DNA of 38,272 nucleotides from IMG/VR virus record IMGVR_UViG_3300046723_000342, positions 1 to 38,272 of that record; one strand, given 5' to 3'. Shown here piece after piece: positions 28,494-32,373 of this stretch; positions within the stretch are counted from its first letter, which is position 1, and each line of letters begins with the position of its first letter. Position numbers and translations under genes: made by a program. The DNA is from a virus. Under the pieces are notes generated by a model. That model made no database searches. It had not been told where the DNA came from and saw only the letters and a program-made list of their open reading frames with translations.

Positions 28494-29774
28494 TCACCCG
28501 GCCGCCTTGCGTTGGCACGCCGGCGTCACACGGGCGCCGGCGCGATCGCGTTTTGCACTGGATCGCTCGTCGTATTCGCGACGCGACGCGCGGATTGAAA
28601 ATCCTCGTGTGGGCGGTTCGATTCCGTCCCTGGGCACCAGATCCGCATGAATTGAAGCGCTTTCCGATGCGGCCGCGTTTCCACTGCTCGCACCGCTTGC
28701 ACCGAAACCGCGACCCTCTGGCACACCGGTGTCACACGCACCCGGCGACGACTTCATCACCTGGTGATGATCTTCCCCGAGCCGGGCCCGGAGCAACGCC
28801 CCGAGCGCGTCGGGAGCGATGCGCCCGTAGACGCGCTCGACCATCCTCGAGTCGCGGTGACGCAGCACGCCGGCGAGGAGGGAAGGCTCGACGCCCTGCG
28901 CTCGGAGCCACGTCGCGCACGTGCGCCGCAAGTCGTTCGGGGTGAGCGGCTCGAGCCCGATGCCGCGGCACGCGTCGGGGAGCTCCCGGCCTACGTTGCC
29001 CCACCCGCGGAACATCGGCCCCGAGTCGGGCGTCACGTCGACGACCATCCGCAGGATCGTGATCTGCCACCACACGAGGGGAATCGTCGCCGCCGCGCCC
29101 GCCGTCTTGGTCCCGCGGATGCGCACCATGCCGCCCTCGAGGTCGATATCCGCTTTGCGAGCGCGCACGCTCTCGGCGTACCGCGCGCCGGTCGCGAGCA
29201 TGAATGCCATGTGCGCCGCCCGGTCGGGGAGTAGGGCGTCGACGAGCCTTTGCAGGTCCGCCGCCCGCCGAAGCACCCGGGCGCGCGGCTTGTAGCCCAC
29301 GGCCCAGCCAACCGGCATGATCGCGTCCACGTCGACGACGAGCTCCCCACGGCGCTTCGCGAGCTTGAGCGCGACCCGTAGCGTGGTGAGCTCCTTCCCG
29401 ATGGTCGTCCTCTCCGCGCCCTCCGACGTCCTCATCGCGATGAAGTGATCGACCATCGCCGCGGTGAGCTCCCCGAGGCGGGTGTCACGCCCGAGGACAC
29501 GAACGAGGTGCGCGGCCTTCGTTTGGTACATGCGCACCGTCCCCGCCGCGCGCCCGCGCTGCGCCCGGTCGGCGAGCATGTGCGTCAGGGCGCTGTCGAG
29601 CGTGGTCGCGTACGCGGCCGAATGTCGGGGATCTGCAGCTTCTCGCTCGAGACGAGCCGCAACGGTTTCGGCCGCTCGTCGGTCGGTGCATCGGGTGGAC
29701 ACGCGGTGTCGGCGCTTGCTCGCGTCGTAGAACGTCGCCCACCACGTTTCGCCGCGCTTGTAGAGTCGTGCCAT
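28494..29774 (-). CDS. int: Tyrosine integrase with attP inside its 3' end
   Basis: A 426-residue tyrosine recombinase. N-terminal arm-binding strands (MARLYKRGETWWATFYD), a core-binding helical part (60-160), then the catalytic residues R198 (ATGARYAES), K223 (GTKTAGA), R283 (NDLRRT, with Asn280 where His is usual), H306 (LRHRDS) and nucleophile Y316 (VERVYGRI). The catalytic domain ends near 335. A further ~90 residues read through the attachment region; residues 379-395 (LVPRDGIEPPTRGFSIR) are the antisense of a tRNA 3' half. After integration the last ~31 codons would come from the host. AGGAACCGGG before the ATG supports the start. Confidence 0.9.
   Translation of the reverse strand: MARLYKRGETWWATFYDASKRRHRVSTRCTDRRAAETVAARLEREAADPRHSAAYATTLDSALTHMLADRAQRGRAAGTVRMYQTKAAHLVRVLGRDTRLGELTAAMVDHFIAMRTSEGAERTTIGKELTTLRVALKLAKRRGELVVDVDAIMPVGWAVGYKPRARVLRRAADLQRLVDALLPDRAAHMAFMLATGARYAESVRARKADIDLEGGMVRIRGTKTAGAAATIPLVWWQITILRMVVDVTPDSGPMFRGWGNVGRELPDACRGIGLEPLTPNDLRRTCATWLRAQGVEPSLLAGVLRHRDSRMVERVYGRIAPDALGALLRARLGEDHHQVMKSSPGACDTGVPEGRGFGASGASSGNAAASESASIHADLVPRDGIEPPTRGFSIRASRREYDERSSAKRDRAGARVTPACQRKAAG
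28513..28532. repeat. Putative integrase arm site 1
   Basis: TGGCACGCCGGCGTCACACG. It matches 18 of 20 bases at 28719-28738 in the same orientation, though the two copies are read in different frames of int, so DNA rather than protein is conserved. It lies 58 nt from the att core. Confidence 0.6.
28591..28639. other. attP: attP core: 3' half of tRNA-Phe(GAA)
   Basis: On the plus strand the anticodon loop TTGAAAA with 3' stem TCCTC, variable GTGTG, T-arm GGCGG-TTCGATT-CCGTC and acceptor CCTGGGC-ACCA match the 3' half of tRNA-Phe. The 5' half is absent: no D-arm, and the 5' anticodon stem mispairs once. This is how phages that use a tRNA as attB restore it on integration. Phage genes lie on both sides, so it reads as attP rather than a prophage end. 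Confidence 0.8.
28719..28738. repeat. Putative integrase arm site 2
   Basis: TGGCACACCGGTGTCACACG, direct repeat of 28513-28532, on the other side of the att core (79 nt away). Each copy also contains a 10-bp palindrome (ACACCGGTGT or ACGCCGGCGT). Confidence 0.6.
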
Positions 29775-29941
29775 CCCGGTTCCTCGATTCGTCGAAGGTA
29801 CGCGTCAAGCGCTCGCCGTGTCACCCGCACCGATCGGCCGCTCACCAGGTGCGGGATCTCCCGCATGATTTCGTAAGCCCGCGAGAGCGACACCTTGAGC
29901 TCGGCCGCGACGTCAGTTGCGGTGAGTACGAGGGAGCTCAC
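29585..29941 (-). CDS. Excisionase-like HTH protein overlapping int
   Basis: A 118-residue protein with a GTG start coupled to the upstream gene. Residues 6-55 (LTATDVAAELKVSLSRAYEI, then VSGRSVRVTRRALDAYLRRI) form the excisionase/MerR-like winged helix that binds DNA and steers integrase. The remaining ~60 residues are low-complexity and basic and overlap int by 190 nt in another frame. The overlap is unusual; the C-terminal part may have little constraint of its own. It is a good Xis candidate by fold and place. Confidence 0.7.
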   Translation of the reverse strand: MSSLVLTATDVAAELKVSLSRAYEIMREIPHLVSGRSVRVTRRALDAYLRRIEEPGWHDSTSAAKRGGRRSTTRASADTACPPDAPTDERPKPLRLVSSEKLQIPDIRPRTRPRSTAP

Positions 29942-30378
29942 ACCAGGCTCATAACAAAGGCCACGAGCGCAGGAACCGGGCGAAACCATTCGCCACGAAG
30001 GCGCGCCTCCGCAGACCGTAGATGAAACCGCTGTTCGGTGGCCCTGTCGGCGTTTTCTAAAAACCCGACGAGATGACACTCGACATGGTTACCGGTTTGG
30101 TTTTGAGCGAATCGCTTAGCGATGTTGGATGCGACACCGATTTTGATAGGCCCAGCCGTCCCGGCTTGGATGAAGTACACGCCAGGGAAAGCAGGCGGGT
30201 CGAGCGGCCGAAGGTATTCAGAGAATAGGCCAAGGACATCCGATTCATTGATGCGCCACTGCCGGCCGAGCTTCTGCGCGCCGGGAATGCGGCCTTGGCG
30301 GCAGAGCTGCGAGACCGTCGAGATCGGCAGCTGCAAGAGCTCGGCTGCTTGTTCCGCGGTGAGAACGCGATCGGTCAT
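29938..30378 (-). CDS. HTH/GIY-YIG fusion protein
   Basis: A 146-residue protein. Residues 5-50 (LTAEQAAELLQLPISTVSQL, then QKLGRQWRINESDVLGLF) form an excisionase-type helix-turn-helix. Residues 64-133 (PGVYFIQAGTAGPIKIGVAS, then IAKRFAQNQTGN and RLRGEWFRP) match the GIY-YIG fold of the T5orf172/MUG113 type, which cleaves DNA in several families. A GTG at 30411 would add 11 residues and overlaps the previous stop; ATG 30378 with a G-rich site is preferred. The GIY-YIG half is visibly AT-richer than its neighbours, suggesting a later acquisition. It may be a nuclease targeted by its HTH to a site near att or the operators. Confidence 0.7.
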   Translation of the reverse strand: MTDRVLTAEQAAELLQLPISTVSQLCRQGRIPGAQKLGRQWRINESDVLGLFSEYLRPLDPPAFPGVYFIQAGTAGPIKIGVASNIAKRFAQNQTGNHVECHLVGFLENADRATEQRFHLRSAEARLRGEWFRPVPALVAFVMSLV

Positions 30379-30407
30379 GGTCCCCCCCGTTGGGCGCGTG
30401 GGGGCAG

Positions 30408-31976
30408 TCACGATGCCTCCTCCAGCTCCCCCGGGATGTATACGTTGCTCACGACGTCGGGATAGACCTCGCGTGCGAGCTCGGCGGCGGCGCGCCATCG
30501 CAGCATCGTCCGCGGGCCCTTCTGCCATTGCGTCGGCTTGCCGCTGTTCGACTTGCGGGTGTAGCCCGCGACGTCGGCGTCCTTCATCGTAAAGGACTCC
30601 TTCCGTTCCTTCCGCGCGCCGACTCGCTTGGTCTCCCACGTCGCGCGCTCGTCCGTCGACTCGATGCACTCGAAGTATTCGGCGAGGCCCGATCGCAGCA
30701 CCATCCCGACCATGAGCGCCGCCGAGATCTGCGGCTTGCCCTCGATAATGTGCATGCCCCTCAAGCTAGTGAGCGCGTCGAGCCCCATCGTGCGGCCCGT
30801 CATAATCACGGCGAAGATCGAATCCGGGTTGCTGTGCGCGCGAAAGAGGCCCGAGTTGTAGAGGTGTTTCGCGAGGGTGTATGCGTTGCTCACGTTGCTC
30901 GGCTCGAGGGCGAGGGCGAAGCGCTCATGCCTCACCGTGGCAAGAGCCGTAGAAGTGCCCGGCTCTTCGGCCACTCCGGCCGGGCTCGGAGGGGCTGCCC
31001 CTTGCGGTTGCGATGGTGTCGCGTGCAGGGGTAGAGCCGAAGCTTGCGGAGGCGCCGGCTCCGTGTCGGCCTCCTCCTCGAATTCTGCGTCTGAGAAAGT
31101 GCCCGGCTCATCGGCCCCACGGCCGGGCTGCGTGTGAGAGGTCTGTTGGGTCCCCTCGCCAGCTGCGAAGCCGGCCGAAGTCTCGTGCTCCTTCTCGAGC
31201 GCCGTGCAGTCGATGGGCGCATCGGTCCGAAGCGTAATCAGCTTGCGAGCGAGTGCGAAGATGTCCGCCGAAGCAATCAGCGAATCACGCACCGAAGGCG
31301 GCTCGATTGCCCATTTGCCGTCCTTCTTCTCGTCGAGCGCGCCCCACAACTTCGAGGCGGTCCCATACTTCGCGAGCAGGCGTTGCGCGTGCTTCGCGCC
31401 GACCTTCTCGACGCCGCGCACGTTGTCGCTCGAGTCACCTACGAGCGCGAGGAAGTCGACCATTTGCGCCGGCGTCACGCCGTAGCGCGCTTCGACCTCG
31501 ACGGGTCCGCCGAGCTTGCCGCTCTGAGGGTCGAGCGCGAGCGTCCCGTTGCCGTTCGAGTCGTTCCACCAAACAAGCTGCAACATGTCCTTGTCGCGGC
31601 TCGCAATGTGAACCTCGCCATGCGATGGGCCCTTCTGCCAGAACCACTCCACGCACGTGGCGATGATGTCGTCCGCTTCGAAGCCGGGCGCCTCGAACAT
31701 GGTGAAGCCTCGCCGCGCGAGCTCCTTCTTCACGCTGTCGAGCTGCTCGATGGCTTCTGTGTCATGCGGCGGCCGGTTGCCCTTGTAGTCGGGGTAGATC
31801 TCGCGACGCCACGACGTGCCCGCGTCGCAGCATACCGCTACGCGTGCGTAGCCCTCGGCGAGCTGAATCACCTTGCCGAGCGTCCTCTCGTAGGGCGCCT
31901 CGCGGCTCTGACTCGCCGAGCCGTGCCAGAGCCACCAGAAGATCGCGCTGAGATCAACGAGGAGGAGAGCCTTCAC
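30408..31976 (-). CDS. FEN/PolA-type 5'-3' exonuclease fused to RecT-like annealase
   Basis: A 522-residue protein; the GTG start overlaps the upstream TGA. Residues 1-255 form a 5'-3' exonuclease of the PolA/T5 FEN family: D8 (LLLVDLSA), D51 (VCCDAGTSWRREIYPDYKGN), E100 and D102-103 (FEADDI), D128 and D130 (SRDKDM), D181 and D184 (GDSSDN) and an H3TH motif (VEKVGAKHAQRLLAKYG). A Pro/Ala/Glu linker (about 262-350) leads to a RecT-like domain: LYNSGLFRAHSNPDSIFAVI, MTGRTMGLDALTSLRGMHII, EGKPQISAALMVGMVLRSG, then TWETKRVGARKERKESFTM and RAAAELAREVYPDV. The chain would chew 5' ends and anneal the exposed strand. Exonuclease and annealase are normally separate genes (lambda Exo/Beta). Confidence 0.85.
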   Translation of the reverse strand: MKALLLVDLSAIFWWLWHGSASQSREAPYERTLGKVIQLAEGYARVAVCCDAGTSWRREIYPDYKGNRPPHDTEAIEQLDSVKKELARRGFTMFEAPGFEADDIIATCVEWFWQKGPSHGEVHIASRDKDMLQLVWWNDSNGNGTLALDPQSGKLGGPVEVEARYGVTPAQMVDFLALVGDSSDNVRGVEKVGAKHAQRLLAKYGTASKLWGALDEKKDGKWAIEPPSVRDSLIASADIFALARKLITLRTDAPIDCTALEKEHETSAGFAAGEGTQQTSHTQPGRGADEPGTFSDAEFEEEADTEPAPPQASALPLHATPSQPQGAAPPSPAGVAEEPGTSTALATVRHERFALALEPSNVSNAYTLAKHLYNSGLFRAHSNPDSIFAVIMTGRTMGLDALTSLRGMHIIEGKPQISAALMVGMVLRSGLAEYFECIESTDERATWETKRVGARKERKESFTMKDADVAGYTRKSNSGKPTQWQKGPRTMLRWRAAAELAREVYPDVVSNVYIPGELEEAS

Positions 31977-32317
31977 GCCGTCACCTGCTTCCATGCACGC
32001 GACATCGCCTCGGCGACCGCAGCGCCGTCGACATCATCCGGCCACAGCCACGCGCCCGGCCCCTCTCGCTTCACCCGACGAGCCTGGATCGCCTGCTCGA
32101 CCGTCTCGCGAATCCCGAAAGAGGAGCCGACCTCTTCGCGCAACGAGACGACGTGCAGGACATTTCGCGCGAGCTCCTGCGCCCAATCCGTGGGCAGGAA
32201 GCGCGCGGCCGCTTCGGTAAGCACGGCCACACGAAGCGCGAGCTTCGCGGGGATCCCTCGCGTGGCGAGGACGGAGAGAGCGAGCGAGGCGTGGAGGGCG
32301 GATCCGCTGTCGTTCAT
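31973..32317 (-). CDS. Hypothetical first gene of the left operon, leaderless
   Basis: A 114-residue helical protein (LALSVLATRGIPAKLALRVA, then WAQELARNVLHVVSLREEVG, ending WPDDVDGAAVAEAMSRAWKQ). ATG 32317 sits 7 nt after a -10 box, with no Shine-Dalgarno, so it is chosen over ATG 32338. It is the first gene expressed from the repressed left promoter and lies immediately before the recombination protein, so it may assist recombination or antagonise the repressor. Family not recognised. Confidence 0.6.
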   Translation of the reverse strand: MNDSGSALHASLALSVLATRGIPAKLALRVAVLTEAAARFLPTDWAQELARNVLHVVSLREEVGSSFGIRETVEQAIQARRVKREGPGAWLWPDDVDGAAVAEAMSRAWKQVTA

Positions 32318-32363
32318 CGGCCCGATGATGATGGCCATCGACAGCGATGTCAATGGACATCGC
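32318..32363 (-). promoter_or_regulatory. Left promoter with operator OL
   Basis: Minus strand: TTGACA (32348-32353), 17 nt, CATCAT (32325-32330), 7 nt, ATG 32317. A perfect inverted repeat GCGATGTC-CATT-GACATCGC (32344-32363) contains the -35 box, so a bound repressor would block it. A second, weaker site (TCGATGGCCAT) follows. Confidence 0.75.
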
Positions 32364-32373
32364 AACGGGGAAC

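Follow-up and report, generated by a model that had tools for sequence, protein, structure and literature searches.

Can one gene of a phage carry both the nuclease and the annealing protein of a recombination system, and if so, what would the joined protein do? The question was raised by a minus-strand gene in the IMG/VR virus record IMGVR_UViG_3300046723_000342, of which we analysed positions 1 to 38,272 (the window, 38,272 nucleotides in full). The lambda Exo/Red-beta and RecE/RecT systems (SynExo, EATR) likewise combine one 5'-3' exonuclease with one single-strand annealing protein. However, lambda Red and RecET consist of two separate interacting polypeptides with a nuclease of the lambda-exo/YqaJ/RecE type, whereas the window has one continuous frame and a nuclease of the FEN/PolA family. 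We found that the product of this gene is one chain, composed of a PolA/T5-type 5'-3' exonuclease (FEN), a disordered linker and a RecT/Red-beta annealase core (Table 1).

Our frame check of the window showed that the gene is a single uninterrupted ORF. The mechanical ORF runs six codons further upstream, to an ATG, than the GTG start that we prefer. The 522-aa product is the likelier protein, because its GTG overlaps the stop of the upstream ORF (GTGA) and aligns with the ATG start of a near-identical gene in another contig, L003. The upstream ORF and the fusion are probably translationally coupled, judging from this overlap. Residue numbers of the fusion protein follow the 528-aa version. 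Production of a free RecT from an internal start was also considered and is unlikely: internal in-frame GTGs lie at residues 335 and 348 (522-aa numbering) and there is no ATG before residue 392, and no candidate had a well-spaced Shine-Dalgarno sequence.

Table 1. Positions of the fusion gene, its parts and neighbours in the window, and of related fusions in other contigs.
Feature	Position	Strand	Remarks
FEN-RecT fusion gene	30408..31976	minus	522 aa from GTG 31976; 528 aa with ATG 31994
FEN / PolA-type 5'-3' exonuclease domain	31188..31976	minus	residues 7-269; Pfam, PHROG, model, folds
Low-complexity linker	30930..31187	minus	residues 270-355; rich in P, A, E, S, T
RecT/Red-beta annealase core	30411..30929	minus	residues 356-527; protein ends without C-terminal tail
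Small upstream ORF	31973..32365	minus	no confident family match; stop overlaps GTG start of fusion
Downstream gene	29938..30381	minus	excisionase-like HTH_17 + MUG113/T5orf172 (GIY-YIG-like); directly downstream of fusion
Tyrosine integrase	28494..29774	minus	phrog_1, E 5.8e-47; PF00589
FEN-phrog_3290 fusions	L067:5911-7719, L200:3998-5728, L201:1-1782, L207:2719-4584		

A reading made from the sequence alone had proposed a FEN-type exonuclease in the N-terminal half, and Pfam, PHROGs, the AlphaFold model and fold matches all bore this out. The Pfam domains 5_3_exonuc_N (residues 41-141, E 1.9e-24, 86.6 bits against a cut-off of 34.3) and 5_3_exonuc (residues 173-265, E 7.9e-22, 78 bits against a cut-off of 40) were both found, and the half matched the exonuclease family phrog_107 (E 1.2e-32). 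Its pLDDT was mostly above 90, and the closest solved folds were plastid exonuclease 1, ExoIX, mycobacterial FEN, T5 FEN and Taq. The T5 D15 FEN, the 5' nuclease of Taq and E. coli PolA, and E. coli ExoIX (Xni) have the same resolvase-like and H3TH/SAM architecture and share with the fusion all nine carboxylates (D14, D57, E106, D108, D109, D134, D136, D187 and D190). These residues and the arch residues K71 and R74, which we take from established knowledge of the family to be equivalent to those of T5 and PolA, were identical in all fusion proteins covering them (58/58). Between the window and L003, the FEN half has a dN of 0.027 and a dS of 0.293, and it is therefore under purifying selection.

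The RecT-like annealase proposed for the C-terminal half was likewise recovered. Pfam RecT (PF03837) covered residues 380-524 (E 2.9e-7) and scored 30.7 bits, with a cut-off of 24; both halves thus exceeded the curated Pfam cut-offs. The RecT-like phrog_4171 was matched with an E-value of 1.1e-19. In a fold search with the whole model, only FEN relatives were among the matches listed, and the RecT half was therefore modelled separately. Modelled alone with 38 relatives, it reached a pLDDT of 92 and a pTM of 0.84, and AlphaFold thus modelled both halves well. The best solved fold was 7ujl, the annealing domain (NTD) of Red-beta on annealed DNA (Foldseek E 3.6e-5, TM 0.61), whose Z of 9.6 (rmsd 3.4 over 134 residues) clearly exceeded that of the rows that followed; this annealing fold is common to Red-beta and the fusion. 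RAD52 and Listeria phage RecT were weaker fold matches (Z ~6.5). The RecT half alone, searched with phmmer, had no match among PDB sequences, whereas a profile reached Red-beta. Both the fold and the conserved core residues of an annealase are retained in this half. In the Foldseek search with the core at 30411-30914, the matches that followed Red-beta were chains of the phage anti-CBASS protein Acb4, which were weak (E ~0.07).

Between the halves, where about 90 residues of Pro/Ala linker had been noted, we found a disordered Pro/Ala/Glu linker of ~85 residues, with pLDDT below 50 over the region 273-361 of the AlphaFold model. All of the fusions have such a linker (38-201 aa, biased composition). 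We looked for a missing RecT match and for a break in the linker, and neither occurred. The linker of the window also contains a degenerate 33-bp direct repeat (GRGADEPGTF / AGVAEEPGTS in the protein), detected with blastn, which may mark a duplication or a recombination seam. The second copy of the repeat sits at the border of linker and RecT, where the window and L003 diverge.

To find relatives, IMG/VR was scanned with protein and alignment queries, and the matches were classified by profiles built from the fusions. The RecT half as a single-protein query gave no match; two-row and fusion-only alignments recovered the fusions. In 55 contigs, the window among them, one frame encodes both FEN and RecT (47 first analysed and eight later). 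The first 47 correspond to 42 non-redundant records at 90% identity, and their median pairwise identity was 47% for FEN and 50% for RecT. Four further contigs join a FEN of this lineage to an annealase of a different family, phrog_3290 (Table 1). The fusion is therefore not one protein; it recurs as a family in about 60 contigs from uncultured phages, and many of the records are fragments. A relative of the window's terminase was present in only 5/43 fusion records; thus the gene has spread over several phage lineages. Although the window comes from a metagenome and has no cultured relative, we rejected an assembly chimera, a frameshift or a chance ORF as having practically no likelihood, because 58 other contigs have FEN-annealase fusions (54 of the identical FEN-RecT type, from many metagenomes, and the four with phrog_3290), the dN is low against the dS and the catalytic residues are invariant. 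The view that the continuous frame is not an assembly artefact proved correct; that the fusion forms a family could not be seen from the one sequence.

We then compared the two halves between fusions. The FEN halves of the window and L003 are 98% identical and the RecT halves 61%, with a break in the DNA at the end of the linker, while L064 and L066 are 52% identical in FEN and 96% in RecT. The exchanged RecT module occupies 30411-30929 in the window and L003:6066-6563. In L067, the annealase half matches phrog_3290 with an E-value of 3.1e-49; a sequence search for a solved relative of this annealase found none. Annealing proteins of phrog_3290 are stand-alone in cultured phages (mycobacteriophages, Streptomyces phage ZL12) and were not found in the window; their homologue replaces RecT in the four contigs. 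Some of these fusions have a linker that is rich in E, R, Q and H, unusually charged and helical in appearance.

The trees were made quickly and some branches are long; what is robust in them is that the fused FENs group together and that their clade has mixed partners. In the FEN tree, all fusions fell into a single clade (SH-aLRT 99), to which neither PolA nor other phage FENs belonged, and the fusion further differs from PolA, T5 FEN and ExoIX in its linker-joined annealase and in having no polymerase domain. The phrog_3290 fusions were nested among the RecT fusions in this tree, and the AU test rejected the RecT fusions as a single clade (p 0.004); the sample thus contains at least two replacements of the annealase. 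On the tree with unfused relatives, the fused RecTs need two changes, and a single origin of the fused RecTs is possible. Taken together, these comparisons indicate that the annealase half was exchanged at the linker several times.

If the exonuclease is attached to the annealase, a surface for recruiting it may be lost. The stand-alone RecTs (L025 and L034; Gordonia, Streptomyces and Salinibacter phages) have an annealase core homologous to that of the fusion, but they are encoded by a separate gene and have a tail. This tail extends at least 76 aa past the core in 28/28 complete unfused relatives, whereas the fused RecTs ended at most 12 residues past it in 47/47 analysed (Fisher p 3e-21, kinship ignored), and the eight later ones were also tailless. 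In Red-beta, annealing requires no more than residues 1-177, and residues 178-261 bind lambda Exo and SSB (PMC9512822). By analogy with this C-terminal docking domain, which the annealase of the fusion does not have, the tail would be dispensable because the exonuclease is covalently attached.

The usual partner exonuclease showed a similar difference. YqaJ was found in 0/42 fusion records and in 8/24 records with an unfused RecT, where it lies elsewhere in the record (p 1.3e-4), and the DUF3799 exonuclease was also found in none of the 42 fusion records, window included. However, YqaJ was not seen in the other 16/24 unfused-RecT records either, and a second, unrecognised exonuclease may be present elsewhere in the fusion phages. 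The absence of YqaJ is thus supportive, not decisive, evidence that FEN replaces the partner exonuclease. The earlier suggestion of such a replacement gains from the missing YqaJ and DUF3799, the lost tail and the exchanged annealase half together. The FEN-N domain (5_3_exonuc_N) was found in 0/24 records with an unfused RecT. A split pair, that is, a separate FEN gene beside an unfused RecT, was also looked for, and none occurred among these 24 records.

We consider it likely that the protein is a temperate-phage recombinase that unites exonuclease and annealase in a single chain, and we infer its nuclease activity, annealing and oligomerisation and the feeding of annealing by resection. The FEN half would bind a 5' end at a double-strand break, nick or flap and remove the 5' strand. 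The RecT half would then oligomerise on the exposed 3' strand and anneal it to complementary single-stranded DNA; a replication fork is one place where this could happen. The flexible linker would tether the halves at 1:1 stoichiometry and would leave the FEN domain free to move during the assembly of RecT subunits on DNA. One polypeptide could thereby do the job of lambda Exo and Red-beta, with a nuclease of another family. T5 exonuclease, a FEN, makes 3' overhangs on linear DNA in DNA assembly (PMC11825038), and thus the polarity of a FEN fits that of lambda Exo.

The main rival to resection is that annealing comes first and trimming follows: RecT would anneal at forks, FEN would mainly mature the joints by removing the resulting 5' flaps or RNA primers, and the host would resect. 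Since FEN enzymes also act as flap endonucleases, the substrate of the fusion could be a flap and not a duplex end. Every motif marks the FEN half as a true FEN; the flap endonuclease Xni and PolA are among its nearest curated models, and DNA-bound ExoIX is among its best solved folds. A DNA polymerase A domain (PF00476) was found in 0/42 fusion records, window included, so primer or flap removal by such a phage would rely on the FEN domain or the host. However, flap removal is normally supplied by the host's own PolA, and the missing partner exonuclease of other RecT phages suggests that FEN fills that role. We regard this order of events as unlikely when taken alone, and both roles could hold together.

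It is much less probable that the protein serves replication, with FEN mainly processing Okazaki fragments and RecT only tethering it to single-stranded DNA. In bacteria, the FEN domain forms part of DNA polymerase I, and the nearest relatives of the FEN half outside the fusions include PolA N-termini. Nevertheless, the polymerase domain is missing from the fusion records, the annealase fold and core residues are kept, and the annealase was exchanged only for another annealase, so that annealing as the selected function fits better.

Resection coupled to annealing, the reading that we prefer, makes the fusion resemble a self-contained and little-known form of the phage recombination systems that use two proteins. 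We searched for FEN-annealase fusions outside IMG/VR and found none in 50,697 GenBank phage records and none in 72,556 plasmids. In 398 Pseudomonadota genomes, an alignment search gave only PolA-length frames among the matches listed (best 216 bits). A genome scan with the whole protein, seeded by short peptide patterns through which prophage copies may escape, found none, and the corresponding scan with RecT found one stand-alone Thiobacillus RecT. No description of a FEN-RecT fusion was found in the open literature searched; two classical surveys of phage annealing proteins lie outside it, and an earlier mention is possible. On balance, we lean slightly towards the view that these are previously undescribed natural single-chain recombinases, in which one FEN lineage carries interchangeable annealases on a linker and would by itself both resect and anneal in many lineages.

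For lambda Red, it is listed as an open question how the trimeric exonuclease and the oligomeric annealase assemble into a 1:1 complex and pass DNA from one to the other (PMC7496540). Here the annealase is joined naturally and covalently, 1:1, to a monomer-type nuclease, and the hand-over becomes directly testable. The fusion would also extend the FEN nucleases to phage annealing recombination, with the linker as a modular joint at which annealases get exchanged in nature. It is a one-gene candidate for double-stranded-DNA recombineering in hosts where two-gene systems fail.

In L003, a tandem array of ~220 bp (L003:4701-4920, 6-bp/57-bp unit, CGCCTA-like) lies just upstream of the fusion gene; it was not reported in the window, despite the near-identical FEN half. 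The window has a repressor-like gene beside the integrase and the excisionase-like gene, and the integrase points to a temperate phage context for the fusion gene. A tyrosine integrase was also present in at least 16/42 fusion records.
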